Below, one piece after another: positions 5,659 to 27,575 of a stretch of DNA of 34,268 nt; within the stretch, counting starts at the first letter, position 1, and each line of letters starts with the position of its first letter. The stretch is taken from the NCBI GenBank assembly GCA_002404015.1, contig DHIW01000121.1, positions 1-34,268 of the forward strand. The letters are read 5' to 3'. This DNA comes from Chloroflexi bacterium UBA4736. Lineage in GTDB: Bacteria; Chloroflexota; Dormibacteria; Dormibacterales; Dormibacteraceae. A program made the translations under genes and the position numbers. The notes beneath the pieces are model-generated. The model worked only from the letters and a program-made list of their open reading frames with translations, was not told the origin of the DNA and did not search any database.

Positions 5659-7182
5659 ATGGGCGCAGAACCCACGGAGGCCCGGCCCCTGGTCCTTGAA
5701 GCCAGCCGGCTGGCCAAGAGCTACGGCGGCCACCTGGTGCTGAAGCACGTCGACTTCGCAATCGCGGCGGGCGAGATCGTCGCGGTCATCGGAGAGAACG
5801 GGGCCGGCAAGTCGACCTTCGCGAAGATAATCGCCGGCGCTGTCCAACCAGAGTCGGGCGAGCTGGCGGTCCACGGCGGGCAGGTCGATTTCCAGTCCCC
5901 GCGTGACGCGCTCCGCGCCGGCGTCGGCTACATCCCCCAGGAGCTGGCCTACCTCTCCAACCGGACGGTCGCCGACAACATCCTGGTCGGCCGCTGGCCG
6001 CACCGGCAGGGCGTCACCAGCGACCTGACGATTCGCTCCATAGCCGCGGCAGACGCGAAGCGGTTCGGCATCCAGGTCGACGTGCGACGCCAGATGGCCG
6101 ACCTGACGCTCGCCGAAAGGCAGCTGGTCGAGATCGTGAAGGCCCTGTCGCGCAGCTCGGCGGTCCTGGTCCTGGACGAGCCCACGGCCTCCCTCACCAG
6201 CTCTGAGAGCCAGAACCTGTTCCGGGTCCTCCGGAACCTGGCCCAGACCGGGCTGAGCATCATCTTCATCTCCCACCGGATGGACGAGATCTTCGATGTG
6301 GGCGACCGAGTGGTCGTCCTTCGCAACGGTGAGGTGGTGGGGAACGTTATGACGGCCGATACGACCCGGCCGCAGCTGATCGGATACATGCTCGGCGCGG
6401 CGGCGGAGGAACTCAGCGAACGACACGAGAGCGGCCCTTTCACGGAGCCCGCGCTGGAGCTTGCCGGCTGGAGCTGGAGCGGCGAGCCCGCGATCACCGA
6501 CTTCAACCTGACGGTGCACCGGGGCGAGATCGTGTGCCTGTTCGGACTTCGCGGCTGCGGCGGCGAGGTCATAGCCGAGAGCCTGGCGGGGCGCAACCGG
6601 AAATTCCAGGGCAGCGTGCGCATCGAGGGCCGGCAGTACGCGATGTTCCGCCGGCCGGGGGCGGCGGGTCGCGCGGGAATCGGCTATGTGCCCGCCGAGC
6701 GCAAGCGCGAGGGCCTCGTCATGCCGCTCCCAGTCCAGGCCAACCTGAGCCTCCTCGTCCTGCGCGCCATTTCCCGGCTCGGCTGGCTAAGCCGGAACAA
6801 GGAGAAGCGCCTGGCTGCGGACCTGCGCCAGCGGATGCAGATCAGGGCGCGTTCCCTCTCCCAAACCGTGGCGACTCTCAGTGGCGGCAACCAGCAGAAG
6901 GTCCTTCTGGCCAGCCGGCTGGCCGCCCGGCCCCGAGTCCTGGTGCTCCAGGAGCCGACCCGCGGTGTAGATGTCGGGGCCCGGGTCGAGATCCACCACT
7001 ACCTCCGCTCAATAGCCGCCCAGGGGACTGGCGTGCTCTGGGTGACGACCGATGTCGAGGAGGCGGTGCTGGTCGCCGATCGCCTGGTCGTCCTGAGGGA
7101 GGGGGCGGTGGTCGCGCAGCTGACTGGGACCGACAAGACGCAGGGCAGGGCCCTGGAGATGGCGACGAAAGATGCAGCTTAA
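5659..7182 (+). CDS. Sugar-type ABC transporter ATP-binding protein (RbsA/MglA/XylG-like)
   Basis: A 507-residue protein with two fused nucleotide-binding domains, the arrangement of carbohydrate uptake (CUT2) ATPases. Domain 1 has Walker A GENGAGKST (residues 45-53), the signature-like segment LTLAERQLVEI and Walker B VLVLDEPTAS near residue 173. Domain 2 has a degenerate Walker A (GLRGCGGE, no Lys-Ser/Thr), as is usual in this family, then LSGGNQQK near residue 407 and LVLQEPTRGVDVG. It powers import together with the following permease and lipoprotein. The next gene overlaps by 11 bp. Family members carry pentoses, hexoses and occasionally other polar molecules, so the amidase and M24 neighbours leave the substrate open. 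Confidence 0.92.
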   Translation: MGAEPTEARPLVLEASRLAKSYGGHLVLKHVDFAIAAGEIVAVIGENGAGKSTFAKIIAGAVQPESGELAVHGGQVDFQSPRDALRAGVGYIPQELAYLSNRTVADNILVGRWPHRQGVTSDLTIRSIAAADAKRFGIQVDVRRQMADLTLAERQLVEIVKALSRSSAVLVLDEPTASLTSSESQNLFRVLRNLAQTGLSIIFISHRMDEIFDVGDRVVVLRNGEVVGNVMTADTTRPQLIGYMLGAAAEELSERHESGPFTEPALELAGWSWSGEPAITDFNLTVHRGEIVCLFGLRGCGGEVIAESLAGRNRKFQGSVRIEGRQYAMFRRPGAAGRAGIGYVPAERKREGLVMPLPVQANLSLLVLRAISRLGWLSRNKEKRLAADLRQRMQIRARSLSQTVATLSGGNQQKVLLASRLAARPRVLVLQEPTRGVDVGARVEIHHYLRSIAAQGTGVLWVTTDVEEAVLVADRLVVLREGAVVAQLTGTDKTQGRALEMATKDAA

Positions 7183-8206
7183 GACCAGGCCGGCGGGCGG
7201 CGAGGACGAGGCTCCGGGCGGACCCGGCGGGGGGCGGGAGGCGTCCGCCTCCCGCGGCACGCGTCTCGCGCTATCGGGCATGCAGGCGCTGGGCCTGGGC
7301 GGCTTCTACGTGCTCGTGCTGGTGTTCTTCTCACTGCAGGCGGAGCACTTCTTCTCCTTCAGCAACACCGTCAACATCCTGTCCAACGTCTCCGTGATCG
7401 GGATCGTCACCCTCGGCCAGGCGCTGGTCCTGATCGCCGGAGGTTTCGACCTCTCCGTCGCGGGGACGGTGCCGTTGGGCGGGGTGATCTTCACGACCCT
7501 GATCAACCGCGATCTCAACGTCGGCGAAGCCTGGGTTGGAGCCGTGATCGCGGGCGGGATGATCGGGATGGCCAACGGCCTGATCATCACCAGGATCGGC
7601 ATCAACGCCCTGGTGACCACGCTGGGCACGCTCTCGATCACCGCCGGCCTGGCCTACGTCGTCACGGCGGGCGTGACGATTCCCTTCAAGAACCTGGACA
7701 ACGGACCGATCGACAACGTGGTCGCCGGAATGCCGCTCTACGTCTGGGTCTGGATCCTCATGAACATCCTGGTCTTCCTGGTCCTCAGGTTCACGGTGTT
7801 CGGCCGGATGATCTACGCGATCGGCGGCAACCGAGAGGCGAGCCGGCTGGCCGGAATCCGGGTGGACCTCGTGACGACGCTCGTCTACGTCATCAGCGGC
7901 TCCCTGGGCGCCTTTTCAGGGGTGATGCTCGCCCAGCAGCTGCTGGCGGGGGCGCCGACGGTCGGTTCCACGGCCGCGCTCACCTCGATCGCCGCGGTGA
8001 TCCTGGGTGGCGCGGCGCTGACCGGCGGGGTGGGCGGCGTGCCCGGCACCATCGTCGGCGTGCTGGTCCTCGGAACCGTCGCCAACGGGATGGCGCTGAT
8101 GCAAGTACCCGCCTTCTACCAGCAGATCGCTACCGGGTCGATCCTGCTGCTGGCCGTCGGCTTCGGCCGTCTGCGCGCCCTCTTCGGGCAACTCGGTGAT
8201 CGGTGA
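7172..8206 (+). CDS. Sugar-type ABC transporter permease (RbsC-like, BPD_transp_2)
   Basis: A 344-residue integral membrane protein with about eight to ten hydrophobic segments. It carries CUT2-permease features: ITLGQALVLIAGGFDLSVAG after the first helices, NALVTTLGTLSITAGLAYV, and TVFGRMIYAIGGNREASRLA before the cytoplasmic coupling region. The hydrophilic N-terminus (about 28 residues, Gly/Arg rich) overlaps the ATPase reading frame. It forms the membrane channel for the transporter. ATG 7172 is chosen because the shared overlap suggests coupling. Confidence 0.92.
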   Translation: MQLKTRPAGGEDEAPGGPGGGREASASRGTRLALSGMQALGLGGFYVLVLVFFSLQAEHFFSFSNTVNILSNVSVIGIVTLGQALVLIAGGFDLSVAGTVPLGGVIFTTLINRDLNVGEAWVGAVIAGGMIGMANGLIITRIGINALVTTLGTLSITAGLAYVVTAGVTIPFKNLDNGPIDNVVAGMPLYVWVWILMNILVFLVLRFTVFGRMIYAIGGNREASRLAGIRVDLVTTLVYVISGSLGAFSGVMLAQQLLAGAPTVGSTAALTSIAAVILGGAALTGGVGGVPGTIVGVLVLGTVANGMALMQVPAFYQQIATGSILLLAVGFGRLRALFGQLGDR

Positions 8207-8240
8207 AATCGGATTGGCCCGGCACATGGGAGGTTCGGCT

Positions 8241-9347
8241 ATGAGACCCAGGGCATTGTTGATCGTGATGGGCTGGCTGGTGGCGTCCGCCTGCGGCGCC
8301 GGGAGCGGCAGCAGCTCCACGTCCAGCAGTACGCTCAAGATCGACTTCGCAAGCGCGGACGACGCCATCGGAGTGTTTCAGACCGTAGGTGACGGCATGG
8401 TCAAGGGCGGCCCGGTCGCAGGGGTGAGCGTGCGCCGCTACGACAACAAACTGGACGGTGCGGTTGCGATCCAGAACGCGGACCTGATGATCCAGGACCA
8501 CCCGGACATCATCATCGACTGGAACGCGGTCGCCAATGTGGGCGCAGCGCTCGGCAAGAAATTCAACAACGCCAAGATCCCCTGCCTGGCCGTCAACCAA
8601 CCGATTCCAGGCTGCGTCCAGTACAACCTCTCGAACATGCAAATGGGCGTGGACGCCGCCAATGTGATCGTCCCCATCGCGATGCAGAGGGGTTGGACCT
8701 CCGCCAACACCACGATTCTCATGTCGGTGGCCTCGCCCAACGGCGTCGAGGTCAATGACGGGCCGCGCTACTTCTACATCACGATCGCGTCGAAGATCCC
8801 CGGCTTCCCGACCCTGACGCCGGACCAGCTGAATCCCCAGACGACGAAGGTCGGCAACTTCCAGGGTCTCCAGTACGAGTGCAACCAGACCGTGGATGGG
8901 TCCTACACCAACGCCAAGAACCTGCTTCCGACCATCCCGGCCGGCAACCACGTGCTGCTGTACGGTTCTGACAGCGATTGTTCGCTCGGCGCGCTGCGGG
9001 CTCTGACCGAGGCCGGACGCGCCAGCAATACGCTGACCTGCGGACTGGGTCCGACACCAGACGGCCTGACCAACCTCCACACGAACGCCTCGTGGGTCTG
9101 TGAGGGCTCGGCCTTTCTGGAGGACTGGGCGGAGTTCATCATCGCAGAGGCCGTGGCAATCCACAGCGGCGCCAAGGTGCCCGCGCTCACGCACAGCCCA
9201 CAGCTGATGCTGACGAAAGCCACCGTCGACACCTACTACAACGGACCCACGATCAAGCTGCTCCCGCCGCTGTCCAAGGACGCCGAGTATCTGAAGGCGA
9301 CCGGCGTGCTGCAGAAGTTCAAGAACGTTCAGGGCGCCGGCGGCTAG
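8241..9347 (+). CDS. ABC transporter substrate-binding lipoprotein (sugar type, periplasmic-binding-protein fold I)
   Basis: A 368-residue secreted binding protein. The signal is MRPRALLIVMGWLVASAC, with the predicted lipidated Cys at 18; the lipobox is slightly unusual, with Ala rather than Leu at -3. A Ser/Thr-rich linker follows, then the mature domain starting at LKIDFASADD. QNADLMIQDHPDIIIDWNAV is the type I binding-protein pattern for effector-site occupation. Four or more Cys in the mature part suggest disulfides. ATG 8241 is preferred over GTG 8196 because it has GGGAGG at normal spacing and begins exactly at the signal peptide. It delivers ligand to the preceding ATPase and permease. 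The ligand is unknown. Confidence 0.88.
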   Translation: MRPRALLIVMGWLVASACGAGSGSSSTSSSTLKIDFASADDAIGVFQTVGDGMVKGGPVAGVSVRRYDNKLDGAVAIQNADLMIQDHPDIIIDWNAVANVGAALGKKFNNAKIPCLAVNQPIPGCVQYNLSNMQMGVDAANVIVPIAMQRGWTSANTTILMSVASPNGVEVNDGPRYFYITIASKIPGFPTLTPDQLNPQTTKVGNFQGLQYECNQTVDGSYTNAKNLLPTIPAGNHVLLYGSDSDCSLGALRALTEAGRASNTLTCGLGPTPDGLTNLHTNASWVCEGSAFLEDWAEFIIAEAVAIHSGAKVPALTHSPQLMLTKATVDTYYNGPTIKLLPPLSKDAEYLKATGVLQKFKNVQGAGG

Positions 9348-9360
9348 ACAGCGACCACGT

Positions 9361-9426: not shown

Positions 9427-10566
9427 ATGAGCAGTACAGCGCAGCGCGCGACCACCGGACCCAAAGTGGCCAAGCTCCAACAGATCATGGAGCGCAAGAA
9501 CCTGGACGGCGTGGTGGTCTCCTCGTACCAGAACGTCTCCTACTTCGGCGGCACCTACCTGGCGACCCAGAACTCGATTCCGGATCGCCTGGCCTTCCTG
9601 GTGGTGCCCCGCGGACAGGCGCCGACACTCGTGGTGTGCGGCATCGAGACGCGCCAGGTTCTGACCCAGACCGACATCGCGGACGTCCGGGACTACGTCG
9701 AGTTCGCCGAGAACCCGACCGACGTCCTGGCCCGGGTGCTCCAGGAGCGCGGCCTGGCGGGAAGCTCGCTGGGGGTTGACGCCCGCCGCCTGCCGATGGC
9801 CTCCGGCGATCTGCTGAAGGAGAGGCTGCGGGGCTCCGAGCTGGTGTCGATCGACGATGAGGTCGAGCTGGCCCAGTCCGTCAAGGACCGATCGGAGATC
9901 GCGATGCTGGAATCGGCCGCTCAGGCCACGCTGGCGGCCGCGGAGGAGACCGCCGCTGAGCTGCCGCCCGGCTCCTCCGAGCGCGACTTCTCGACGCTGG
10001 CGTTCCTGAAGCTGATGCAGAAGGGGGGCACGCCCCTGTTCCAGGTCTTCGCCACGGGCGAGCGCACGATGCAGGCCCACCCGGAGTCCACCGAGCGGCG
10101 GCTCGAGCCCGGGGTGCTCTGGCGGATCGACTTCGGAGCCCGGTTCCACGAGGTCATCAACTCGGATCTCGCCCGCACCGGGGTCGTCGGCGAGCCCAGC
10201 GCGGAGCAGGAAGCCACCCTGAAGGCGCTGCGCGCCACGCAGGACGCCGGGTTCAAGGCGATCGAGCCCGGCCGGCGGGCCGGGGACGTCTTCAGGGCGG
10301 TGAAAGACGAGTTCAAGAGCCAGGGACTGCCGTTCTCGATGCCCCATATCGGCCATGGGATGGGCATCGGCCTGCACGAGTTCCCGATGCTGGAGCCCGG
10401 CTGCGACATCGTCCTCGAAGCCGGCATGGTGCTGAACATCGAGCCGATGGTCGTGATGGAGGACCGCAAGGAGGCCTACCACACCGAGGACCTGGCGGAG
10501 GTGACCACGGCGGGGCCGCGACTGCTGACACCGCCCCAGGAGGGCCTTTTGAGAGTCCGCGCATGA
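9427..10566 (+). CDS. M24-family metallohydrolase 1 (Xaa-Pro peptidase/creatinase fold)
   Basis: A 379-residue protein with a creatinase-like N-terminal domain (residues 1-150) and a C-terminal pita-bread catalytic domain. All five expected metal ligands are visible: D235 and D247 in RIDFGARFHEVINSDLARTG, H310 in GHGMGIGLHEFP, E339 in LNIEP and E354 in YHTEDLA. It should therefore be an active metal-dependent hydrolase. The family includes Xaa-Pro aminopeptidases, prolidase, creatinase and ectoine hydrolase, and the sequence does not decide among them. It is a close full-length paralogue of the enzyme at 17970-19109. Its stop overlaps the next start (ATGA). It likely hydrolyses a C-N bond in an imported compound. 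Confidence 0.88.
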   Translation: MSSTAQRATTGPKVAKLQQIMERKNLDGVVVSSYQNVSYFGGTYLATQNSIPDRLAFLVVPRGQAPTLVVCGIETRQVLTQTDIADVRDYVEFAENPTDVLARVLQERGLAGSSLGVDARRLPMASGDLLKERLRGSELVSIDDEVELAQSVKDRSEIAMLESAAQATLAAAEETAAELPPGSSERDFSTLAFLKLMQKGGTPLFQVFATGERTMQAHPESTERRLEPGVLWRIDFGARFHEVINSDLARTGVVGEPSAEQEATLKALRATQDAGFKAIEPGRRAGDVFRAVKDEFKSQGLPFSMPHIGHGMGIGLHEFPMLEPGCDIVLEAGMVLNIEPMVVMEDRKEAYHTEDLAEVTTAGPRLLTPPQEGLLRVRA

Positions 10567-10754
10567 AACCCGACGAGGTGGACGCGGGGCTGATCCGGAC
10601 GCTGGCCCACGTCGCGGGCATCAGGGTCCCAGAGGAGGATCTCGAGCCGCTGGTGGCGGCCTACAAGAACCACGTGGCCGGCATGGCCGCCCTCGACGCC
10701 CTGGACCTCGAGGAGCAGGACCCGATCGTCGTCTTCGACCCAAGGTGGCGATGA
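10563..10754 (+). CDS. AtzG-like (DUF4089) small amidase partner
   Basis: A 63-residue protein: an N-terminal helical part (RTLAHVAGIRVPEEDLEPLV), then NHVAGMAALDALDLEEQDP and the tail IVVFDPRWR. The short length, the helix followed by a D-P-x-x-VF-P tail and its position immediately before an amidase-signature gene match AtzG/DUF4089. In the cyanuric-acid pathway that protein forms a complex with the amidase AtzE and clamps its active-site side, much as GatC does for GatA. Both ends overlap neighbours by 4 bp (ATGA), so it is translationally coupled to the amidase. A generic GatC-like protein is the main alternative; no gatB is nearby, which argues against tRNA amidation. Confidence 0.72.
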   Translation: MKPDEVDAGLIRTLAHVAGIRVPEEDLEPLVAAYKNHVAGMAALDALDLEEQDPIVVFDPRWR

Positions 10755-12175
10755 GCGAGCTCTGGCGGCTGAGCATCCGAGAGGCCGGCGACGGTCTCGT
10801 GGCCGGCCGCTTTTCCGCGGTCGAGCTCCTGGAATCGACCGTCGAGCGGTTGGAGGCGACCGAGCCCACCGTCCATGCCTACGCGACCCTGATGCACGAC
10901 TCCGCCCGGCGCGAGGCGAGCGCCGCCGACGCGGACATCGCCCGCGGCCGCTGGCGGGGCCCGCTGCACGGGATCCCGGTCGGAGTCAAGGATCTCTGCT
11001 TCACGGAGGGCGTGCCGACCGAGGCCGGCTCGAAGGTCATGAAGGGCTTCATCCCCGACCACGACTCCACCGTCGTCGGCCGGCTGAAGCAGGCGGGCGC
11101 TGTGATCGTGGGCAAGACGGTCACCCACGAGTTCGCCTACGGACAGGACGTGCCCGTCACCCGCAACGCCTGGAACCCGCGCTGCTACCCGGGCGGGTCG
11201 AGCGCCGGTTCCGGTGTGGCGGTTGCGGTCGGCTCCGCCTTCGGCGCCATCGGGACCGACACGGGGGGCTCGATCCGGGTCCCGGCCTCGGTTAACGGCG
11301 TGGTCGGGCTGAAGCCGACATACGGGCGGGTGAGTCGCTTCGGCGTCTTTCCGATGAGCCCGACGCTGGACAATGTGGGGCCCCTGACACGGACCGCCGA
11401 GGACTGTGCCCTGCTCTTCGGCGCGATCGCCGGCCACGACCCGCGCGACCCGGGCAGCCTGCCTGAGCCGGCGGCTGACTTCAGCGCCGGCATCGGCGAG
11501 GGAGGGCGCGGCTTGCGTCTCGGCCTGGACCGCGACTACTTCTTCTACGACCGCGTCACGGACGAGGTGCGGGCGGCCGCGGAGGCCGCGATCCGGGAGC
11601 TGGAGGCCCTGGGCGTCGACATCGTGGAGGTGCGGATCCCCGAGCTGGGGTACGCACCGCTCGCGGGCATGACCGTGCTGCTGGCGGACACCAGCGAGTG
11701 GCACCGGCGGCTGCTCCGGACGAAGGGCGACCTCTACGTTCCAGGAGTCCGGGTGATGCTCGAGCTGGGCGAGATGGTGCTCGGCGCCCAGTACGTGCAG
11801 GCGCAGCGGGCGCGATCCGCCATCCGGGACCGGGTCCGCAACGCTTTCGACCGATATCGTCTCGACGGGCTGGTCGGGCCCACCCTGCCCATGCCGACGA
11901 TGCCTCTCGAGCAGCATTCGGCGAAGCTCACAGGCGGGACCGACGCCGACCTCTCACCCTTCCTGCACCACTGCTTCCTGGGGAACGTCATCGGCATCCC
12001 CGCGCTCAGCTTTCCCTGCGGCTTCAGCCCCACGGAGCTGCCGATCGGCCTCCAAGTCTACGGGCGCCCGCTGGCCGAGGCAATGCTCTTCCGGGTCGCC
12101 CACGCCTACCAGCAGGTCACCGACTGGCACACGCGCCGGCCCGAGCCGCAGCGGCAGGTCGCGACGGCTCCGTGA
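10751..12175 (+). CDS. Amidase-signature enzyme 1 (AtzE/GatA-like)
   Basis: A 474-residue amidase-signature hydrolase. The Ser-cisSer-Lys triad is visible: K80 in GIPVGVKD, the Ser pair S150/S151 in PGGSSAGSG and the nucleophile S174 in GTDTGGSIRVPAS. It should hydrolyse an amide, a carbamoyl or a related bond in the cytoplasm. ATG 10751 overlaps the stop of the AtzG-like gene, and the preferred pairing is a complex with that protein. It aligns gap-free with the next protein over the first 180 residues, so the two arose by tandem duplication. No amidotransferase B subunit is present, so a catabolic amidase is the best reading. Confidence 0.88.
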   Translation: MSELWRLSIREAGDGLVAGRFSAVELLESTVERLEATEPTVHAYATLMHDSARREASAADADIARGRWRGPLHGIPVGVKDLCFTEGVPTEAGSKVMKGFIPDHDSTVVGRLKQAGAVIVGKTVTHEFAYGQDVPVTRNAWNPRCYPGGSSAGSGVAVAVGSAFGAIGTDTGGSIRVPASVNGVVGLKPTYGRVSRFGVFPMSPTLDNVGPLTRTAEDCALLFGAIAGHDPRDPGSLPEPAADFSAGIGEGGRGLRLGLDRDYFFYDRVTDEVRAAAEAAIRELEALGVDIVEVRIPELGYAPLAGMTVLLADTSEWHRRLLRTKGDLYVPGVRVMLELGEMVLGAQYVQAQRARSAIRDRVRNAFDRYRLDGLVGPTLPMPTMPLEQHSAKLTGGTDADLSPFLHHCFLGNVIGIPALSFPCGFSPTELPIGLQVYGRPLAEAMLFRVAHAYQQVTDWHTRRPEPQRQVATAP

Positions 12176-13614
12176 ACGAGCTGGCCGGGCTGACGATCGC
12201 CGACGCGGAGGCGAGGCTGGCCCGCCGAGAGGTGTCGTCGCGGGAGCTCGTCGAGGCCGTCCTCCAGCAGGCGGCCCAGACCGAGCCCCTCGTGCACGCC
12301 TTCGCCCACCTGAGCCCGGAGAGCGCGCTGGCCCAGGCCGACCGCGTCGACTCCGAGCTGAAACGGGGCACCCGGCGCGGTCCCCTGGCCGGCATCCCGA
12401 TCGCGTTCAAGGACCTGGTCTACACCACCGACGCCCCGACCGAGGCAGGTTCCCGGGTCCTGGAGGGCTGGGTGCCGGACTTCGATGCCGAGGTGATCGG
12501 GAGGCTGCGCGAAGCGGGCGCCGTGGTGCTCGGCAAGACACACACGCACGAGTTCGCGTACGGCGTCAACATCCCGCCCACCCGCAATCCGTGGCGCCTC
12601 GATTGCTATCCCGGCGGCTCGAGCGCAGGCTCCGGGGCGGCGGTTGCCGCGCGCTCGGCGTTCGGCGCCATCGGCACCGACGGGGGCGGCTCGATCCGCT
12701 GCCCCGCCTCCGTGAACGGAGTGGTGGGCCTGAAGCCGACCAACGGCAGGGTGAGCCGGCGCGGCGTCGTCCCGATGAGCTCGACCTTCGACACGGTGGG
12801 CCCGCTGACCCGGACCGTGGACGACTGCGCGATCCTGCTGGGCGCCATGGCCGGCTACGATCCCGGCGATCCGATCAGCCTGCTTGAGCCGGTGCCCGAC
12901 TTCAGAGACGGTCTGCAGGGCGGAGTTCGGGGGCTCAGGCTGGGGGTCGAGCGCGACTTCTTCTTCAACGCACGCCTGGACGCCGATGTGCGCCGGGCGG
13001 CGGAGGGCGCGCTCGACTTTTTCGTCGCGGAGGGCGCCCAGATAGTCGAGCTCAGCATCCCCGGGCTCGAGCTCGCGGTGGCCATCGCGATGCCCCCGAT
13101 CCTGTCCGACACCACGGCCTATCACCACGACTGGATCAGGGAGCGCGCCGATCGCTACGAGCCCGCCACCCGGGTCATGATCGAGCTGGGCGAGCTGATC
13201 CCGGCCACCCACTACGTGACAGCCCAGCGGGCGCGGAGCTTCCTTCGCGAGCGGGTTCGAGCAGCGTTCGAGTCCCATCGCCTGGACGCGATGTTCGCGC
13301 CGACTCTGCCGCGGCCGACGGTCCCGGTTGAAGAGGTCGGCCTCGACCTCACCGAAGGAGCGGGTGAGACGCCCGGCTCGTCCTACTTCCGCCACTGCGT
13401 GACGGCCAACATAGTGGGGGTGCCCGCACTGAGCTTCCCTGGCGGCTTCAGCAGCGCGGAGCTCCCGATCGGCCTGGCCCTCTTCGGACGGCCGTTCCAG
13501 GAGGCCCGGCTATTGCAGATCGCGCGCGCGTACGAGGCTGCTCACCCCTTCCACGAGAGGGCGCCCTCGTTCCGAACGCCTGACCCGGCGGGGAACCTCG
13601 CTGGTGCGCGTTAG
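12172..13614 (+). CDS. Amidase-signature enzyme 2 (tandem paralogue)
   Basis: A 480-residue amidase-signature enzyme, duplicate of the preceding gene. The catalytic Lys is K80 in GIPIAFKD, the Ser pair is in PGGSSAGSG (S150/S151) and the nucleophile S174 is in GTDGGGSIRCPAS. Spacing is identical to amidase 1, while the substrate-facing middle region (residues 230-330) differs more. The GTG start at 12172 overlaps the previous stop (GTGA); an earlier start would run inside amidase 1. It has no AtzG-like partner of its own, so it may share that protein or act alone on a related substrate. Confidence 0.88.
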   Translation: MNELAGLTIADAEARLARREVSSRELVEAVLQQAAQTEPLVHAFAHLSPESALAQADRVDSELKRGTRRGPLAGIPIAFKDLVYTTDAPTEAGSRVLEGWVPDFDAEVIGRLREAGAVVLGKTHTHEFAYGVNIPPTRNPWRLDCYPGGSSAGSGAAVAARSAFGAIGTDGGGSIRCPASVNGVVGLKPTNGRVSRRGVVPMSSTFDTVGPLTRTVDDCAILLGAMAGYDPGDPISLLEPVPDFRDGLQGGVRGLRLGVERDFFFNARLDADVRRAAEGALDFFVAEGAQIVELSIPGLELAVAIAMPPILSDTTAYHHDWIRERADRYEPATRVMIELGELIPATHYVTAQRARSFLRERVRAAFESHRLDAMFAPTLPRPTVPVEEVGLDLTEGAGETPGSSYFRHCVTANIVGVPALSFPGGFSSAELPIGLALFGRPFQEARLLQIARAYEAAHPFHERAPSFRTPDPAGNLAGAR

Positions 13615-15672: not shown

Positions 15673-15683
15673 GACCGGTGACC

Positions 15684-19255: not shown

Positions 19256-20836
19256 ATGGACGAGCGATTGATTTTGAATTCCGCGCTGACCCGGCGGCGG
19301 CTGCTTCAGTTCGGGGTGCTGGCCGGCGCCAGCTGGACCGGGCTGGGGTTGCTGGAAGCCTGCGGCACGTCCACGTCCACGTCCACGTCGACCACGGCCC
19401 CCACCGGGGGCACGCTGATCTTCGGCGAGGGCACCGGACCGGCCAACCTGGACCCGCTCGGGCCGGGCGGCAGCACGCCGCTGCTGGGTTACTGGCGGCA
19501 GATGTTCGACACCCTGGTCTGGTACGAGAACGGCAAGGTCGTCCCTCAGCTCGCCACCAGCTGGAAGAACGTCGACGACCTGACCTGGGAGTTCAAGCTC
19601 CGCACCGGTGTCAAGTTCCACAACGGGGAGGCCTTCGACGCCACCGCGGTCAAGTTCACCCTCGACAGGATCCTGGACCCCAAGCAGAAGGCAACCCAGG
19701 CCTCCCGCTTCACAGCGCTGAAAAGCGTCGAGGTGGTCGATCCCCAGACCGTGCGCATGCACACGACGACGCCTTTCCCGGTCCTGCTCCTCGGGCTGAC
19801 CCAGGCGTTCATCGTGCCCCCCCTGTACACGGCCCAGAGCCCTGACAAGGCCCTGACCGCGCCGGTCGGCACCGGTCCGTTCAAGTTCGACGCCTGGCAG
19901 CAGGGCGCCCAGCTCAGCTACGTCGCCAACACCGGCTACTGGGGCGGCCGCCCCAAGCTGGACAAGCTGGTGTTCCGGGTCATCTCCGATGACGCGGCCC
20001 GGCTGGCCGCCCTCAAGGCGGGCGAGATCCACATCGACATGAACCTGCCCCTGGACGCCATCGACGCGGTGTCGAGCGATCCCAACCTGAAGGTGGCGAA
20101 GGCCTTCATCGACAACTCGCTCATCCTCGAGATGGACACGCTGCGGGGCGGTCCGACGGCTGACCCCAAGGTCCGGATGGCGATCAACTACGCCATCGAC
20201 AAGGACGGCATCAACAAGACCCTCCTGTCGGGCAAGCTCCGGCCGCTGGCCGGCCAGCTGCTGACCGACGATGCCTTCGGCTGGAACCCGAACATCAAGC
20301 AGGTCCCGTACGACCCCAACATGGCCAAGCAGCTGCTCACCCAGGCCGGGTATCCCAACGGCTTCGACACCCAGGTCAACGGTCCGATCGGCAAGTACAC
20401 GGCCGACAGGGACATCGTGATCGCCGTGGCCGACCAGCTGAACAAGGTCGGCATCCGGGCCAAGGCCAACCCCATGGACTACGGGCTCTTCGTGCAGAAA
20501 CTGATCTCGAACCAGCTCGGACCCATGTTCCTGGTCGGCTGGTTTAGCTTCGGCGACCCGGCGCTGGCTGAGATCTGGCTTTCGTCCAAGTCGACGCTCG
20601 GCCACTACTACCAGGACCCGACCTACGACGACTTCATCACCAGGGGCGCTTCCGACCTGGACCAGAAGACGCGGCAGGCCACGTACTTCCAGGCCGCCCA
20701 GTACATGCACGACCAGGCGATGGCCGCCTGGCTGTTCCAGGCCGCGACCTACTACGGCGTCAGCAAGAAGGTGACCGGGTTCGCGCCGCGCAACGACGAG
20801 CTTCCGTTCTTCTTCTCGGCCGCCATCTCCAGCTAG
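19256..20836 (+). CDS. Peptide/nickel-type ABC transporter substrate-binding lipoprotein (SBP_bac_5)
   Basis: A 526-residue DppA/OppA-type binding protein. The N-terminus carries a twin-arginine-like motif (TRRRLLQFG, Arg 13-15) and a lipobox ending at C36 (GLLEAC), so it is probably a Tat-exported lipoprotein. A Thr/Ser linker follows. The mature protein shows family signatures: TLIFGEGTGPANLDP, LATSWKNVDDLTWEFKLRTG followed by VKFHNGEAFDA, and KVRMAINYAIDKDGIN. It delivers short peptides or similar molecules to the permeases at 21055-22893. Its TAG stop lies exactly at the edge of the inserted repeat element at 20833-21033. Confidence 0.93.
   Translation: MDERLILNSALTRRRLLQFGVLAGASWTGLGLLEACGTSTSTSTSTTAPTGGTLIFGEGTGPANLDPLGPGGSTPLLGYWRQMFDTLVWYENGKVVPQLATSWKNVDDLTWEFKLRTGVKFHNGEAFDATAVKFTLDRILDPKQKATQASRFTALKSVEVVDPQTVRMHTTTPFPVLLLGLTQAFIVPPLYTAQSPDKALTAPVGTGPFKFDAWQQGAQLSYVANTGYWGGRPKLDKLVFRVISDDAARLAALKAGEIHIDMNLPLDAIDAVSSDPNLKVAKAFIDNSLILEMDTLRGGPTADPKVRMAINYAIDKDGINKTLLSGKLRPLAGQLLTDDAFGWNPNIKQVPYDPNMAKQLLTQAGYPNGFDTQVNGPIGKYTADRDIVIAVADQLNKVGIRAKANPMDYGLFVQKLISNQLGPMFLVGWFSFGDPALAEIWLSSKSTLGHYYQDPTYDDFITRGASDLDQKTRQATYFQAAQYMHDQAMAAWLFQAATYYGVSKKVTGFAPRNDELPFFFSAAISS
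19366..19389 (+). repeat. Hexanucleotide microsatellite, 4 x CACGTC
   Basis: Four perfect copies of CACGTC encode a Thr-Ser repeat right after the lipidated Cys of the binding protein. Because the unit is 6 bp, gain or loss of copies stays in frame and would only lengthen or shorten the linker between membrane anchor and binding domain. Confidence 0.75.
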
Positions 20837-21054: not shown

Positions 21055-21972
21055 TTGATCGAGTACGTCCTGAAGAGGCTGGTGCAGGTGCCGATCACCC
21101 TCGTGGTGATCACCGCGGTGGTGTTCGTCCTGCTCCACCTCTCCGGGAACCTCGTCAACCTGCTCCTGCCTCTGGACGCCAGCCCCAGCCAGCGGGCGGA
21201 GCTGACGCACTCGCTGCACCTCGACGAACCGCTGCCGCTGCAGTACCTGCGCTTCCTGGGGGCGCTCGCCCACGGCGACCTCGGGACCTCGCTTTTCTAC
21301 CAACGGCCGGCGCTGGCGGTCGTGTTCGACCGGTTGCCCGCAAGCCTCGAGCTGGCGGTGGCCGGGATCCTCATCGCCACCGTCTCCGGGATCGGGCTGG
21401 GCATCCTGGCGGCCGTCCGAGAAGGCTCGCTGAGCGACACCCTGATCTCGGCCCTGACCGTCTTTGGCCAGTCCATGCCGAGCTTCTGGCTCGGGATCAT
21501 GCTGATCCTGCTCCTGGCCGTGACCTGGCACCTGCTGCCCACCGGGGGAATGGGCCAACCGAGCCAGATCATCATGCCCGCGATCACCCTGGCCGCCTTC
21601 CTGGCCCCCCAGATCCTGCTGCTGACCCGCGCCAGCATGCTGGACGTGCTTCACGATCCCTACATCACGGTCGCCAGGTCAAAGGGTCTGCCGGACCGGA
21701 TCGTGATCCTGAGACACGCCCTCCGAAACGCGTTGAACCCCGTGATCGCCTCGGTGGGCCTGCAGTTCGGCTCCCTGATGGGCGGTGCGGTCATCACCGA
21801 GACGGTGTTCGCGTGGCCGGGGCTGGGCCAGCTCTCCGTGCAGGCCATCTTCAGCCGCGACCTCCCGGTGGTCGAGGCCTCGGTCGTGGTGCTGGCGGTC
21901 GGGGTCCTGCTGGCCAACCTGGCGGTGGACGTCCTCAACGCGCAGATCGACCCCCGGATCCGGTACCGGTAG
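21055..21972 (+). CDS. Peptide-type ABC transporter permease 1 (DppB-like)
   Basis: A 305-residue inner-membrane permease with about six hydrophobic segments, beginning MIEYVLKRLVQVPITLVVIT as is typical of DppB/OppB. The conserved cytoplasmic EAA-type coupling loop is at about residues 203-231 (ITVARSKGLPDRIVILRHAL then RNALNPVI). GAVITETVFAWPGLGQL follows, a strong family signature. The start is TTG 21055 with GAGGTGG upstream at short spacing. It pairs with the next gene as a heterodimeric channel. Confidence 0.92.
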   Translation: MIEYVLKRLVQVPITLVVITAVVFVLLHLSGNLVNLLLPLDASPSQRAELTHSLHLDEPLPLQYLRFLGALAHGDLGTSLFYQRPALAVVFDRLPASLELAVAGILIATVSGIGLGILAAVREGSLSDTLISALTVFGQSMPSFWLGIMLILLLAVTWHLLPTGGMGQPSQIIMPAITLAAFLAPQILLLTRASMLDVLHDPYITVARSKGLPDRIVILRHALRNALNPVIASVGLQFGSLMGGAVITETVFAWPGLGQLSVQAIFSRDLPVVEASVVVLAVGVLLANLAVDVLNAQIDPRIRYR

Positions 21973-22893
21973 ATGGCGGCCCTGACCGACGCCGGCCTGG
22001 TCGCTGGCAGCCCGGCGCCCAGGGCGGCGGGCACAGTCGCCGGGCGCCGGGGCCTGCGCACCGTGCGCCGCAACCCTCGGCTCTATATCGGGGCGCTGAT
22101 CCTTGCCCTGATCTGCGTCGGGGCGATCGGGGCGCCTCTGATCACGCACTACGGCCCGTCCACGCAGGAGCTGGTGAACCGGCTGCGGCCCCCGGCTTGG
22201 AACGCCCGCGGCAGCGTGGCTCACCCGCTGGGGACCGACACCTTCGGCCGCGACGTGTTCAGCCGGCTACTGTTCGGCGCTCGCTACTCGCTCCTGGTGG
22301 CCTGCGGCGCGGTCATCGGTTCGGGTGTGATCGGGGTCGTCCTGGGCGCGGTCGCCGGCTACTTCGGCGGCTGGGCGGAGGCGCTGATCATGCGGGCGGT
22401 CGACGCCCAGCAGGCCCTCTCCGCGATCCTCCTGGCCCTGATGGTGGCGGCCCTGTTCGGCAACAGCCTGCTCAACCTCTTGCTGGTGCTGGCCGTCACC
22501 GGCTGGTCCACCTACACCCGGATCCTGTTCGGCGTCGTGAGATCCATCCGCGGGCAGGAGTATGTCAGCGCCGCCATCTGCCTGGGAGCCCGGCCGACCG
22601 ACATCGTCATCCACCACGTGCTGCCCAACATCGTCTCGCCGATCATCGTCATCTCGACCCTGCAGGTCGGCCGCATGCTGCTGCTGGAGGCCGGGCTGAG
22701 CTTCCTCGGACTCGGCGTCCCCGAGCCTCTGCCCGCCTGGGGAACGATGCTCTCCGACGGCTACCGGAACATCTTCACCGCGTCCTACCTGACCACGATC
22801 CCCGGGGTCGCCATCACCATCACCGTGTTCGGCGTGAACCTGCTCGGCGACGGACTTCGCCGCGCCCTCGACCCGCACCTTCGCGGCACCTGA
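21973..22893 (+). CDS. Peptide-type ABC transporter permease 2 (DppC-like)
   Basis: A 306-residue permease. The N-terminal cytoplasmic stretch is followed by the OppC-type first helix (RLYIGALILALICVGAIGAP). HPLGTDTFGRDVFSRLLFGA is the classic DppC signature, and the EAA-like loop is at about 197-225 (YVSAAICLGARPTDIVIHHV then LPNIVSPI). ATG 21973 directly follows the TAG of the previous gene. Together the two permeases form the translocation pore served by the ATPases at 25591-27575. Confidence 0.93.
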   Translation: MAALTDAGLVAGSPAPRAAGTVAGRRGLRTVRRNPRLYIGALILALICVGAIGAPLITHYGPSTQELVNRLRPPAWNARGSVAHPLGTDTFGRDVFSRLLFGARYSLLVACGAVIGSGVIGVVLGAVAGYFGGWAEALIMRAVDAQQALSAILLALMVAALFGNSLLNLLLVLAVTGWSTYTRILFGVVRSIRGQEYVSAAICLGARPTDIVIHHVLPNIVSPIIVISTLQVGRMLLLEAGLSFLGLGVPEPLPAWGTMLSDGYRNIFTASYLTTIPGVAITITVFGVNLLGDGLRRALDPHLRGT

Positions 22894-22907: not shown

Positions 22908-23303
22908 ATGCCCGCTACAGAGATCAGCACCGACCGCGCACCGAGGTTTGCATCGCCGCTCTCCCAGGCCATCCGTTCCGGCGAACTGCTCTTCACCTCG
23001 GGCCAGGTGGGGGCTCACCCGGAGACGGCGGACATGGTGGAGGGGGGCATTCGGGAGCAGACCGAACGCGTCATGGAGAACCTGAAGGCCGTGCTGGAGG
23101 CCGGGGGCAGCTCGCTGGACGAGGTCCTCAAGACCACCTGCTTCCTGACGGACATGGCCGACTTCGCGGCCTTCAACGAGGTCTACGCGGGCTATTTCCC
23201 AGGCCGCCGGCCGGCACGCTCGACCGTCCAGGTCTCTGCCCTGGCCGGGGCCTACGTCGTCGAGGTGGAGGCCATCGCAAGGGTCCCGGAGTCGGGCCGG
23301 TGA
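22908..23303 (+). CDS. ridA: RidA/YjgF family protein (reactive imine deaminase)
   Basis: A 131-residue protein of the RidA/YER057c/UK114 family. It shows the family blocks SGELLFTSGQVG (residues 24-35), LDEVLKTTCFLTDMADFAAF, the carboxylate-binding R104 in RPARSTVQVSAL, and E121 in VVEVEAIA. Such trimers hydrolyse reactive enamine/imine intermediates from amino acid breakdown, and relatives in catabolic operons have substrate-specific roles. ATG 22908 has a strong RBS (AAAGGAG, 22896-22902), well above the operon norm. The next start overlaps its stop (GTGA). Its place among M24 hydrolases suggests that an imine or enamine forms in this pathway. Confidence 0.9.
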   Translation: MPATEISTDRAPRFASPLSQAIRSGELLFTSGQVGAHPETADMVEGGIREQTERVMENLKAVLEAGGSSLDEVLKTTCFLTDMADFAAFNEVYAGYFPGRRPARSTVQVSALAGAYVVEVEAIARVPESGR

Positions 23304-24457
23304 GCGCCCTCAACCTGGCCGCCTGCACCCGAGCGCCCTATGTCGACCTGGACCGAATCCGGCGAACCATCGACGAGGGCCCCTACGACGCCGTCCTGGC
23401 CCTGGCCCCCGAGAACGTCCCCTACTACAGCGGCTTCTACAACATCGACCTCCGCTTGCTGCCCGAGCGGCTGCACGTCTGCATCTGGCCGCGAGGCGGC
23501 GAGCCGGCGCTCGTGGTGGTGGAGCGGCGGGCCCGCCTGCTGCGCCCCGATGAGACCTACCTGACGGACATCCGCGGCTACCAGGGCGAGGGCCTTGACG
23601 CGATGCGGGCCGTCGCCGAGGTGCTGCGGGACCGCGGGGTCGACAAGGGCCTGATAGGGTACGAAGCCCGCAGCTTCCCCGGCGGCCAGCTCGTCGAGCT
23701 GATGCGCTTGCTGCCAGGGCTCAGGTTCGAGGACGCCTACCACTTCCTCGAGGGCCCGCGGGTCATCAAGACCCCGGCCGAGGTGGAAGTGATGACGCGC
23801 GTCAACCGCATGACCACTGACGCGATCGACACCGCCTTCCGAGCGGTTCGGATCGGCGACACCGAGCGCTCCGTCATGGCGCGGATGCACGCCGAGCTGA
23901 TCGGCAACGGGGTGGACGTGGTGATCGCGCCCCTGCTCGCGGCCGGTCACCGCTCAGGCATCTGGCACGGCACGGCCGGCGACCTCCGGCTGGAGGAGGG
24001 CATGGTCCTGAAGACCGACTTCGGGGGCCTGCTGGACGGCTACTACTCAGACATCGCGAGGACGGCGGTGGTCGGGCGGGCGTCGCCCCGCCAGCGGGAC
24101 ATCCACGCCAAGATCACGGAGATCAAGCACCGGATCGTGGCCGGCATCCGGCCCGGCATGCCGGCGGGCGACGCCGCCCGGATCGGCATCAAGGCCTACG
24201 AGGACCTCGGGCTGGAGTTCAAGTGGCACATCCTCGGGCACTCGCTGGGACTGGGCGTGCACGAGGCGCCCCAGATCTATCCCTGGGTGGAGGAACCGAT
24301 CCTGACCGGAATGACGATGATGATCGAGGTCGGCTTCAGCGACTACCCCAACGACAGCTTCCACGTCGAGGACCTCATCTACATCAACGAAGAGGGGGCT
24401 GAGTACGTCACCGACGCCAGGGCGCACGAGCAGATCTGGGAGCTCGGCCGTGATTGA
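23300..24457 (+). CDS. M24-family metallohydrolase 3
   Basis: A 385-residue pita-bread hydrolase, divergent from enzymes 1 and 2. The N-terminal creatinase-like domain begins near VDLDRIRRTIDEGPYDAVLA. The catalytic domain retains all metal ligands: two Asp in DFGGLLDGYYSDIART, the His in ILGHSLGLGVHEAPQI, Glu in MMIEVGFS and Glu in FHVEDLIY. The GTG start at 23300 overlaps the ridA stop, and the gene's own stop overlaps the next GTG by 8 bp. Lying inside a peptide-transporter operon, it probably processes the imported ligand, with Xaa-Pro dipeptidase-like or other C-N hydrolase activity. Confidence 0.87.
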   Translation: MSALNLAACTRAPYVDLDRIRRTIDEGPYDAVLALAPENVPYYSGFYNIDLRLLPERLHVCIWPRGGEPALVVVERRARLLRPDETYLTDIRGYQGEGLDAMRAVAEVLRDRGVDKGLIGYEARSFPGGQLVELMRLLPGLRFEDAYHFLEGPRVIKTPAEVEVMTRVNRMTTDAIDTAFRAVRIGDTERSVMARMHAELIGNGVDVVIAPLLAAGHRSGIWHGTAGDLRLEEGMVLKTDFGGLLDGYYSDIARTAVVGRASPRQRDIHAKITEIKHRIVAGIRPGMPAGDAARIGIKAYEDLGLEFKWHILGHSLGLGVHEAPQIYPWVEEPILTGMTMMIEVGFSDYPNDSFHVEDLIYINEEGAEYVTDARAHEQIWELGRD

Positions 24458-25589
24458 GCTGAAGAGCGCCCGCGACCTGATCAACACCGAAAGGCTGCAG
24501 CGCGAGCTGGCGGAGGCGGGACTTGACGCGGTCGTCGCGGTGGCGCCCGAGAACACCTACTACCTGTCGGGCGCCTACATCCGAACCCAGGTGTCCATCC
24601 GAGACCGCCTCGCGCTGGTGCTCTGGCCGAGGCAGGGCGAGCCGACATTCATCGTGTGCAACATCGAGGAGAGCCTGGTTGCCCGGGAGTCCTGGATCGG
24701 CGACGTCCGGACGTACGTGGAGTTCGCGCAATCACCCGTCAACCTGCTGATCGAGGTCATGCGCGAGCGCGGCCTCCAGGGCTCGCGCATTGGAATCGAG
24801 CGCCGCTTCCTCACGGCTGAGTACCACGACGAGCTGCTCGAGGGCTTCCAGGCCGACTACCGGCCGGCCGACCAGCTGCTGGAACGGGTCCGCGCCATCA
24901 AGATGCCAGGCGAGGTCGAACGGATCAGGGACGCCTTCGTCAGGACCGAGGCGGCGATCCGCGCCGCCTGGGCCGCCACGCGCGCGGGCGACAGTGAAAA
25001 GGTCATCGCCGAACGAATGTCGGCCGAGATAACCGAGCGCGGCGCCGACGGTATCCGCCACGTGACGCTCGCCAGCGGCGAGAACACCATCCACGCACAC
25101 CGCCGCCCCGGTGAGCGCCGGCTGGCGCCGGGCGACCTGCTGCTGACCGATATCGGCGGCAACTGGGGAGGGTTCAACTCCGACATGGCGCGAATGGGCG
25201 TTTGCGGTGAGCCCACCGCCGAATCCCTGAAGGAATACGGAGCGTACCGCGAGGCATACGTCGACACGCTTCGGTTCCTCGGCCCAGGGGTCACCGCCGC
25301 CGAGGTGTTCAACCATTGCGCGCGGGAGTTCGAGAAGCGCGGCATCGCGCTGAGGGCGCCCCACATCGGGCACAGCCTCAGCCGCGGCGGCGGGCACGAG
25401 AACCCGATCCTGCACCCGTTCAACGAGCAGCGCCTCGAGCCGGGGATGCTGATCGCGCTGGAACCGACGTTCCAAGCCAGCGAGACGCGTCGCTACCACC
25501 TGGAGGACCTTGTCCTGATAACCAGCGACGGCCGCGAGATCCTGACCGATTGGCAGAGCACGGCCGACATGATCCGACTCGCGACGTAG
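24450..25589 (+). CDS. M24-family metallohydrolase 4
   Basis: A 379-residue pita-bread hydrolase. Ligands: two Asp in TDIGGNWGGFNSDMARMG, His in HIGHSLSRGGGHENP, Glu in LIALEPTF and Glu in YHLEDLVL. The His loop is distinctive: SLSRGGGHENP replaces the usual GxGxHE, a likely active-site specialisation. The GTG start at 24450 overlaps enzyme 3. The two may be partner subunits or successive steps. It ends 1 bp before the ATPase gene that follows. Confidence 0.86.
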   Translation: MIELKSARDLINTERLQRELAEAGLDAVVAVAPENTYYLSGAYIRTQVSIRDRLALVLWPRQGEPTFIVCNIEESLVARESWIGDVRTYVEFAQSPVNLLIEVMRERGLQGSRIGIERRFLTAEYHDELLEGFQADYRPADQLLERVRAIKMPGEVERIRDAFVRTEAAIRAAWAATRAGDSEKVIAERMSAEITERGADGIRHVTLASGENTIHAHRRPGERRLAPGDLLLTDIGGNWGGFNSDMARMGVCGEPTAESLKEYGAYREAYVDTLRFLGPGVTAAEVFNHCAREFEKRGIALRAPHIGHSLSRGGGHENPILHPFNEQRLEPGMLIALEPTFQASETRRYHLEDLVLITSDGREILTDWQSTADMIRLAT

Positions 25590-25590
25590 C

Positions 25591-26568
25591 GTGCTGCTCC
25601 AGGTCCAGCACCTCACGACGGAGTTCGTCACCGACCGTGGCGTGGCCAAGGCCGTGGACGATGTCTCCTTCGAGCTTGCGGAGGGCGAGGCGCTGGGCGT
25701 GGTCGGCGAATCGGGTTCGGGCAAGAGCGTGACCGCCCTCTCGATCATGCGGCTGGTTTCCCGACCCGCCGGCCGGATCACGGCGGGCCGGGTGCTGTTC
25801 GAGGGGCAGGACCTGCTGGAGCTGGACGAGGACGAGATGCGGAAGGTTCGGGGGAGCCGGATCGCGATGATCTTCCAGGATCCGATGTCCAGCCTGAACC
25901 CGGTCCTGACGATCGAGCGCCAGATGACGGAGACGCTCGAGCTCCACGAGGGGCTGAGCAGGCGGCAGGCCAGGGTGCGCGCCATCGAGATGCTGGACCT
26001 GGTCGGCATCCCAGACGCCACCCGCCGCGTCGACGACCACCCTCACCAGTTTTCAGGGGGGATGCGGCAGCGCGTCATGATCGCGATCGCGCTCAGCTGC
26101 TCGCCCCGACTGCTCATCGCCGACGAGCCGACCACCGCGCTCGATGTCACGATCCAGGCCCAGATCACGGACCTGGTGCAGCGGCTCCGCAGGGAGTTCA
26201 CGACATCGATCATCTGGATCAGCCACGACCTCGGCGTCGTGGCCGGCCTCTGCGACCGCGCCATGGTGATGTACGCCGGCCAGGTCGTGGAGGTGGCGCC
26301 GGTCGACGACATCTTCGCGGACCCCCGCCACCCGTACACGCTGGGGCTACTCAACTCCATCCCGCGGCTCGACCGCCCCGTCACCGCCGAGCTGGTGCCC
26401 ATCGAGGGCTCGCCCCCCGACCTGCTCAACCGGCCGTCCGGCTGTCCCTTCCAGCCGCGCTGCACGTACTCGGTGGCGCAGTCGCTCGAGCAGCGGCCGC
26501 CGCTGGAGGAGGTCAGACCAAGGCACCACGTGGCGTGCTGGGTCGACGTCACGGCGGTGGGCGCGTGA
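25591..26568 (+). CDS. Peptide-type ABC transporter ATP-binding protein 1 (DppD-like)
   Basis: A 325-residue ATPase with Walker A GESGSGKS (residues 39-46), Q-loop [11 protein letters not shown], signature [12 protein letters not shown], Walker [15 protein letters not shown] and H-loop WISHDLG. The C-terminal oligopeptide-transporter extension follows (GCPFQPRC). In DppD/F proteins this extension carries four Cys able to bind a 4Fe-4S cluster. Here the third position reads Ser (within [10 protein letters not shown]), so the set looks incomplete. The GTG start at 25591 follows the previous stop by 1 bp. It forms the motor with the next gene. Confidence 0.92.
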
Positions 26569-27575
26569 ACGCGGCGGTCGGAGCCGAGCAGCGGCCGCTG
26601 CTCGAAGCTCGCGACCTGAAGACGTACTTCACGGTGCGGCGGGGGCTGCCGCTGGCGCGGCGGACGACTGTGATCCGGGCGGTCGACGGAGTCGATCTCA
26701 CGATCGCGGCGGGCGAGACATTGGGCCTGGTCGGCGAGTCGGGCTGTGGCAAGTCGACGCTTGGCCGGAGCCTGCTCCGCCTGGTCGAACCGACCTCCGG
26801 CACCGTGACCTTCGACGGCACCGACGTCACGTCAGCGGGGGACGACGAGCTGCGGCGGCTCCGCCGCCGGATGCAGATGGTGTTCCAGGATCCCTTCGGC
26901 AGCCTGGATCCCCGGATGACGGTGGAGCAGGCGATCGGGGAGCCGCTTCGCATCCACCGGCTGGCGTCGGGATCGCGGCGCCGCCAGCGCGTGCGCGACC
27001 TGCTCGGGTTCGTGGGCCTCGATCCCTCGGCCGGAGACCGTTATCCGCACGAGTTCTCGGGCGGCCAGCGGCAGCGGATCGGGATCGCCCGGGCCCTGGC
27101 CGTCGAGCCGGACTTCATCGTCTGCGACGAGCCGGTCTCCGCTCTCGACGTGTCGGTCCAGGCCCAGGTCCTGAACTTGCTGGACCGCCTGCGCGACCAG
27201 TTGAAGCTGACCTATCTGTTCGTGGCGCACGACCTGAGCGTGGTGCGGCACATCAGCCACCGCGTCGCAGTCATGTACCTGGGCAGCGTCGTGGAGGTGG
27301 CATCTCGCGACCGCCTTTACGCGGAGCCGCTCCACCCTTACACCCAGGCCCTTCTCTCCGCCGTGCCGCTGCCCAATCCCGGGATCGAGAAGCATCGCCG
27401 CCGGGTGATCCTGAAAGGCGACGTCCCGAGTCCGGCCCGCCCGCCTTCGGGCTGCCGCTTCCACACGCGCTGTCCCATTGCGATCGACAGGTGCAGCGTA
27501 GATGTGCCGCCCCTGGAGGAGAAGCGCCCCGGCCACGTCGCAGCCTGCCACCTGGTAGAACCCGCAAAGGCCTGA
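26565..27575 (+). CDS. Peptide-type ABC transporter ATP-binding protein 2 (DppF-like)
   Basis: A 336-residue ATPase. DppF-type N-terminus ([10 protein letters not shown]), Walker [11 protein letters not shown]-loop [12 protein letters not shown], signature [12 protein letters not shown], Walker [15 protein letters not shown] and H-loop FVAHDLSV. The C-terminal extension keeps the full Cys set ([15 protein letters not shown], later AACH), unlike its partner. GTG 26565 is chosen because it overlaps the DppD-like stop (GTGA). It is the last gene of the transporter operon and is followed by a stem-loop at 27611-27644. Confidence 0.92.

Follow-up and report, generated by a model that had tools for sequence, protein, structure and literature searches.

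The 34,268-nucleotide contig DHIW01000121.1 of Chloroflexi bacterium UBA4736 (assembly GCA_002404015.1; this whole stretch is referred to here as the window) carries, between positions 5659 and 27575, a block of 19 genes, all on the + strand and together 96.8% coding. We propose that this block represents two adjoining modules, each of which imports and hydrolyses small peptide-like amides, a reading to which we give an even chance. Module A (5659-15672) encodes a CUT2-class ATP-binding cassette (ABC) importer (RbsACB), the hydrolase M24-1, a small open reading frame (ORF), amidases 1 and 2, an epimerase-like enzyme of the enolase superfamily, and an aldo-keto reductase. Module B (15725-27575) encodes a GAF-PucR regulator, M24-2, OppABC, RidA, M24-3, M24-4, and OppDF. 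The proposal builds on the gene content, the metal ligands, the sequence motifs, and gene order, which one relative conserves for module B and another for the first six genes of module A. An initial annotation of the window had described a near-continuous block of these families, with two complete importers of different classes and four M24 hydrolases retaining all of their metal ligands. Pfam analysis bears out this inventory, with RbsACB and OppABCDF both present (RbsB falls below its Pfam cut-off and is supported by its fold). The genes are as follows.

5659..7182, +, module A: RbsA-type double ATPase of the CUT2-class importer (Pfam ABC_tran, two stretches; best NCBIfam models AraG and YtfR, below cut-off)
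7172..8206, +, module A: RbsC-type permease (Pfam BPD_transp_2; best NCBIfam model AraH, below cut-off)
8241..9347, +, module A: RbsB-type binding lipoprotein (Peripla_BP_4 below cut-off; predicted fold; alternative GTG start at 8196)
9427..10566, +, module A: M24-1 hydrolase (Peptidase_M24 and Creatinase_N; D235, D247, H310, E339, E354)
10563..10754, +, module A: 63-amino acid ORF, possibly a GatC-like non-catalytic amidase partner (directly before amidase 1; fold nearest GatC, not significant)
10751..12175, +, module A: amidase 1 of the amidase-signature family (Amidase, 8.4e-113; KD, GGSSAG, and GGS motifs)
12172..13614, +, module A: amidase 2 (Amidase, 6e-109; same motifs; 54% identical to amidase 1)
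13604..14698, +, module A: enolase-superfamily protein, probable dipeptide epimerase (MR_MLE N and C; 3jva match)
14692..15672, +, module A: aldo-keto reductase (Aldo_ket_red, 8.2e-69; translated from 14608 for the search)
15725..17821, +, module B: GAF and PucR-type (HTH_30) regulator (Pfam; a 62% identical copy precedes M24-2 in locus L002)
17970..19109, +, module B: M24-2 hydrolase (Peptidase_M24 and Creatinase_N; 65% identical to M24-1; separate orthologous group)
19256..20836, +, module B: OppA/DppA-type binding protein (SBP_bac_5, 3e-87)
21055..21972, +, module B: OppB-type permease (BPD_transp_1; NCBIfam)
21973..22893, +, module B: OppC-type permease (BPD_transp_1, OppC_N)
22911..23303, +, module B: RidA (Ribonuc_L-PSP; TIGR00004 at 142.9, above the cut-off of 106.25)
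23300..24457, +, module B: M24-3 hydrolase (Peptidase_M24 and Creatinase_N; metal ligands kept)
24450..25589, +, module B: M24-4 hydrolase (Peptidase_M24 and Creatinase_N; metal ligands kept)
25591..26568, +, module B: OppD-type ATPase (ABC_tran and oligo_HPY; NCBIfam)
26559..27575, +, module B: OppF-type ATPase (ABC_tran and oligo_HPY; NCBIfam PRK11308; alternative GTG start at 26535)

Related genomes were sought with an alignment of the M24-1/M24-2 family against one genome per species (84,980 species), yielding 32 loci, three with an identity of at least 56%; the scan was driven by two peptide patterns and misses relatives that lack them. Three loci are central to the argument: L001 in a Chloroflexi metagenome-assembled genome (MAG; genome G001), L002 in Ca. 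Dormiibacter inghamiae (G002), and L003 in Ca. Gaiellasilicea of the Actinomycetota (G003). In L002, a tblastn map places all ten module B genes, from PucR to OppF, in the same order as in the window at 62-90% identity. In L003, the first six module A genes (RbsA, RbsC, RbsB, an M24 gene, the small ORF, and amidase 1) follow one another in order at 42-62% identity, at which point the contig stops. L001 carries OppD and OppF (48% and 54%; not close to those of module B), followed by M24-1 (73%), the small ORF (66%), and amidase 1 (78%), the last being cut by the contig end. Judged by the markers M24, RbsB, and PucR, one of the three closest genomes has just module B, another just module A, and the third a partial hybrid; none has both modules. 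Among these genomes, RbsB (E ≤ 1e-10) was detected only in G003, with none in G002, and PucR (E ≤ 1e-40) only in G002, with none in G003. All three are draft MAGs, and each gene absence is therefore weak evidence.

Sampling around these genomes recovered close M24 genes in 1 of 301 genomes from the phylum of G002, 2 of 110 from its class, 1 of 349 from the class of G003, and 1 of 396 from the phylum of G003, while RbsB was found in 1 of 129 genomes from the order of G003. The samples overlap, and in all but that of the G002 class only some first-look candidates of many genomes were scored; the positive genomes were again G001, G002, and G003. A protein collection that includes metagenomes yielded 408 M24 homologues, and in plasmid searches the M24 matches all lay below 60% identity. 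Further genes were noted at the relatives' loci. Upstream of module B in L002 lie an amidohydrolase gene (1827-3209, -), with sub-cut-off matches to dihydroorotase, allantoinase, and dihydropyrimidinase models, and a gene for what appears by eye to be a second GAF-PucR-like protein (3258-5261, +). In L003, a threonine ammonia-lyase-like gene (1305-2417, +; 376.2 bits against a cut-off of 378.75) lies approximately 3.7 kb upstream of module A.

The block is also unevenly packed. Six of the eight junctions in module A are overlaps of 4-11 bases, the remaining two being gaps of 34 and 79 bases on either side of RbsB (start 8241). From the aldo-keto reductase through PucR, M24-2, and OppA to OppB, successive gaps measure 52, 148, 146, and 218 bases, and tight packing resumes from OppB.

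The descent of the M24 proteins was examined in a tree of 40 rows, namely the four window proteins, 17 from fetched loci, and 19 of the 120 homologues listed (of 408 found); the rows include duplicates, seen as zero-length pairs (L002_M24_2/P0098 and L003_M24/P0113). Loci L007, L013, L014, and L016-L032 lie outside the tree, and all of these except L007 are covered by the tblastn map only. M24-1 groups with six relatives (98/98) and M24-2 with eight (100/99), and the two groups are joined at 97/91. We take M24-1 and M24-2 to be old paralogues, each module holding one of them, and their 65% identity links modules A and B by descent. The M24 protein of L003 falls outside both groups and is about equally near to either, while M24-3 and M24-4 are distant, their placement being unsure because of long branches. 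A further test compared the contigs bearing RbsB and M24 homologues (103 of 105 and 118 of 120 rows, respectively, the others showing no contig). Eleven of the 102 distinct lengths of RbsB-bearing contigs equalled that of an M24-bearing contig, whereas 120 shifted controls averaged 1.0 such matches and never exceeded 4; as far as lengths can tell, it is therefore probable that the two families share metagenome contigs.

All four M24 proteins score above the PF00557 cut-off and retain the metal ligands D, D, H, E, and E (D235, D247, H310, E339, and E354 in M24-1 numbering). The closest solved relatives of M24-1, M24-3, and M24-4, the three searched, are prolidases and aminopeptidases P. Against the Xaa-Pro dipeptidase PepQ model NF040821, however, the four proteins reach only 98.2, 97.9, 118.5, and 85.0 bits, with a cut-off of 630. 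Prolidase and aminopeptidase P carry, two residues before the last Glu ligand, an Arg that has a role in these enzymes, and all four of the printed prolidase alignments, two of which involve nearly identical chains, show this Arg. At that position the four window proteins all have His, as do 38 of the 40 aligned rows overall; the exceptions are two plasmid proteins that are poor relatives. The His-bearing rows come from Dormiibacterota, Chloroflexota, Actinomycetota, Pseudomonadota, Bacillota, Acidobacteriota, and Armatimonadota. The four window proteins are thus probably metal enzymes near to the prolidases yet forming a separate group.

The genes adjoining distant M24 relatives provide a wider context. 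A DctP component of tripartite ATP-independent periplasmic (TRAP) importers was confirmed in L006, L008, and L011, and TRAP genes were recognised by eye in L007 and L009; Opp genes occur in L010 and a RidA-family gene in L008 and L005. Amide-hydrolase genes are likewise found as neighbours, namely hydantoinase B (L012), creatininase (L015), and FmdA (L004), with hydantoinase A approximately 5 kb away in L011. On a haloarchaeal plasmid, Opp genes, an M24 gene, an amidase, and a gamma-glutamyltransferase stand side by side on both strands. The M24 protein in question (L048:9001-10107) keeps the His and has lost two metal ligands; metal-free M24 proteins may therefore share such contexts, beside Opp, amidase, and ggt genes. 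Taken as a whole, these neighbourhoods favour amide or peptide nitrogen compounds as a broad class and count against fixing on one compound.

Turning to the importers, RbsB scores 31.2 bits against Pfam Peripla_BP_4, under the cut-off of 35.1. Its AlphaFold 2 model is confident (mean predicted local distance difference test score, pLDDT, of 90), with ribose- and arabinose-binding proteins as the closest folds, and many of its 105 homologues bear ribose transport names. At the positions of the ligand residues of E. coli RbsB, which we take to be D89, R90, and D215, the window protein has N, Q, and G, in an alignment that is weak in places. Ribose uptake as such was rejected, as these contacts align to other residues. 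OppF passes the NCBIfam subfamily model PRK11308 by a narrow margin (408.9 against 408). Apart from OppF and RidA, the NCBIfam models shown for the block's proteins score below cut-off, while neither RbsB nor the small ORF matches any; names alone do not give the substrate.

Both amidases combine a match to the amidase-signature profile with the Lys, cis-Ser, and Ser motifs. Their scores against the AtzE models TIGR02715 (272.5 and 268.7; cut-off 425.75) and NF006631 (279.2 and 279.3; cut-off 461) fall well short. The small ORF that precedes them had been described as an AtzG-like partner. It matches no Pfam family above cut-off and, in a collection that we take to include the AtzG/DUF4089 family, gave no AtzG-type match at an E limit of 10 (filters remove most matches above ~0.1); true AtzG identity was rejected on this ground. 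The AlphaFold 2 model (mean pLDDT 86) shows two helices and a loose tail. In a fold search, the top nine of 62 PDB matches were GatCAB or transamidosome entries (probability up to 0.97; E 0.23-1.2, none significant), and 6c62_C, which we take to be AtzG, ranked 16th (E 5.1). A profile search placed GatC chains fourth and sixth of seven, beneath unrelated proteins and at non-significant E values of 0.28 and 0.74. The ORF directly precedes a GatA-like amidase 1 in three lineages (the window, L001, and L003). This position and the faint fold and profile matches make a GatC-like (GatC/AtzG-type) amidase partner our best guess, and it is in this broader sense that the earlier description may hold. 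The available part of one report presents AtzG as the obligate non-catalytic partner of AtzE, with AtzEG thought to derive from GatCA (PMC6219798).

The enolase-superfamily protein has the dipeptide epimerase 3jva as its best PDB match (E 9.8e-52). Dipeptide epimerases are recognised by a KxK motif, the metal ligands D/E/D, an opposite Lys, and a DxD motif; the window protein shows this set as KLK, DAN, EQP, ADE, and DSD, with the opposite Lys present in the alignment. The DSD aligns with the DLD of 3jva and less certainly against 1jpm, and further DxD triplets occur in the protein. NCBIfam models for L-Ala-D/L-Glu epimerase are not reached (122.2 and 66.1 bits against 500 and 343), and the protein is, from its motifs and best match, a probable dipeptide epimerase. 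As regards RidA, the available text of PMC4433059 has threonine dehydratase yielding enamines that RidA clears.

From these components we infer which substrates are used, in what order the steps run, how they are regulated, and that the small ORF and amidase 1 are partners. In module B, the Opp-type importer would take up short peptide-like compounds, whose C-N bonds would be cleaved by the metal-dependent M24-2, M24-3, and M24-4, with RidA removing reactive enamine or imine by-products and the GAF-PucR protein presumably governing the module. In module A, the CUT2-class importer would take up a related ligand, to be hydrolysed by M24-1, amidase 1 (with the GatC-like protein as a holding subunit), and amidase 2; the epimerase-like enzyme might then invert a residue of a dipeptide intermediate, and the aldo-keto reductase could reduce a carbonyl product.

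Several points weigh against this two-module proposal. The modules lie only 52 bases apart in the window, and joint transcription is therefore possible. Outside the window, module A is only partial, because the contigs of both L001 and L003 break off within amidase 1 or shortly behind it. Sugar-binding proteins make up most of the fold neighbours of RbsB, and this gives no hint of peptide uptake by module A. Distant M24 relatives accompany TRAP importers more often than Opp, and the haloarchaeal arrangement is a poor parallel on account of the lost ligands. Finally, the length test misses real neighbours, as the longest contigs listed for RbsB and M24-1 of the window itself differ (35,116 and 862,998).

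The short gap between the modules also speaks for one integrated pathway, as initially envisaged, in which a single cyclic or N-substituted amide enters through two importers and undergoes ring opening and stepwise cuts by M24 enzymes and amidases under PucR as common regulator. The hydantoinase B, creatininase, and FmdA genes beside M24 relatives, the allantoinase/dihydropyrimidinase-like gene 4.5 kb before PucR on the opposite strand of L002, and the occurrence of proteobacterial atzG-atzE clusters near nitrogen-compound genes, as given in the available part of PMC6219798, point the same way. We nevertheless regard it as rather unlikely, given that, by their marker genes, the three closest genomes carry one module or a partial hybrid. 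Slightly less probable again is ordinary scavenging by two unrelated generalist operons that are neighbours by chance, Opp with peptidases serving mixed dipeptides and CUT2 with amidases serving mixed amides. All of the families are indeed common, and prolidases and aminopeptidases P are the nearest solved relatives of three of the M24 proteins; however, the kinship of M24-1 and M24-2 ties the modules together, the His in place of the prolidase Arg is common to all four proteins, and the close M24 group is rare (the 2 of 110 genomes above), albeit with 408 homologues in the metagenome-inclusive collection. Very improbable, in our view, is an ectoine- or creatine-type catabolism with M24 as ectoine hydrolase or creatinase. 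Creatinase 1chm does match M24-1 (4.1e-9), and ectoine hydrolase (DoeA/EutD) models are matched at low score, but the best scores are 95.3 and 41.8 against cut-offs of 575 and 613 (66-95 and at most 42 bits overall). Moreover, the five ligands kept in the window are absent from an M24 homologue in the pSymB stretch that we take to contain eutD, an unannotated record. These identities were rejected for the M24 proteins.

The two-module proposal accordingly describes the block better than a single composite pathway, the linkage noted in the initial annotation being real. The expected co-occurrence in related genomes was seen for transporters with M24 and amidase genes, but modules A and B were not found together in the three closest draft MAGs. 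The regulator, taken to be central, is present, but in the one close relative that has PucR it goes with module B rather than with the whole block. Cleavage of amide or peptide-like C-N bonds gains from the amide-hydrolase neighbours of distant M24 relatives, although the case for one compound does not. There is little to favour a guanidino compound, since the matches to creatinase and ectoine hydrolase are poor, the epimerase-like enzyme is nearest to dipeptide epimerases, and one importer is of the Opp type.

The potentially new element could be the M24 group itself, the other families being ordinary. It is possible, though we hold it only tentatively, that these proteins form an undescribed non-prolidase group marked by [Y/F]H.ED, which hydrolyses non-peptide or cyclic amides and has spread across phyla while switching importer (CUT2, Opp, TRAP); the window, with its four copies, two importers, and GatC-held amidase, would be the richest example encountered. 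Should one particular non-peptide amide prove to be what the group hydrolyses, the labels 'Xaa-Pro peptidase' and 'Xaa-Pro aminopeptidase' now attached to genes of several phyla would be wrong, and a small bounded module of one binding protein, one M24 protein, and one small ORF/amidase pair would offer a direct route to that substrate in phyla with few cultured members, Dormiibacterota among them.

Elsewhere in the window, positions 709-3027 (-) encode the molybdopterin-binding subunit of a xanthine/aldehyde dehydrogenase-type enzyme. Beyond the block, a VIT-family match (27666-28088, +) spans only profile positions 1-90 of 214, and the gene may be shortened or frame-shifted. Two transfer RNA-Arg genes, at 31510-31585 (-) and 32259-32334 (+), with anticodons GCG and CCG, run in opposite directions with approximately 670 bases between them.

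A literature search, within the available parts of its sources, found no described pathway with this gene combination, and comparison is therefore with its components. Module B shares with Opp/Dpp peptide importers the full OppABCDF set, while the epimerase-like gene, in contrast to Opp/Dpp systems with dipeptide epimerases, sits with the CUT2 importer. The M24 proteins share with prolidase and aminopeptidase P the fold family, the five metal ligands, His218, and His317, and differ in the His that replaces the prolidase Arg and in their distance from PepQ (85-119 bits against 630). As in the atzG-atzE(-atzH) clusters of PMC6219798, in so far as the available text describes them, a small ORF directly precedes an amidase-signature enzyme near ABC importers; the window ORF, however, lacks an AtzG-type Pfam match, the amidases reach 269-279 bits where the AtzE models require 426 and 461, and no atzD, atzF, or atzH was recognised among the genes scanned. 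The available part of PMC13188858 links the M24-type hydrolase EutD/DoeA of ectoine catabolism to exchangeable importer classes, TRAP or ABC. The window M24 proteins resemble it in being tied to interchangeable importer classes, although they retain their metal ligands and fall short of the ectoine hydrolase cut-offs.

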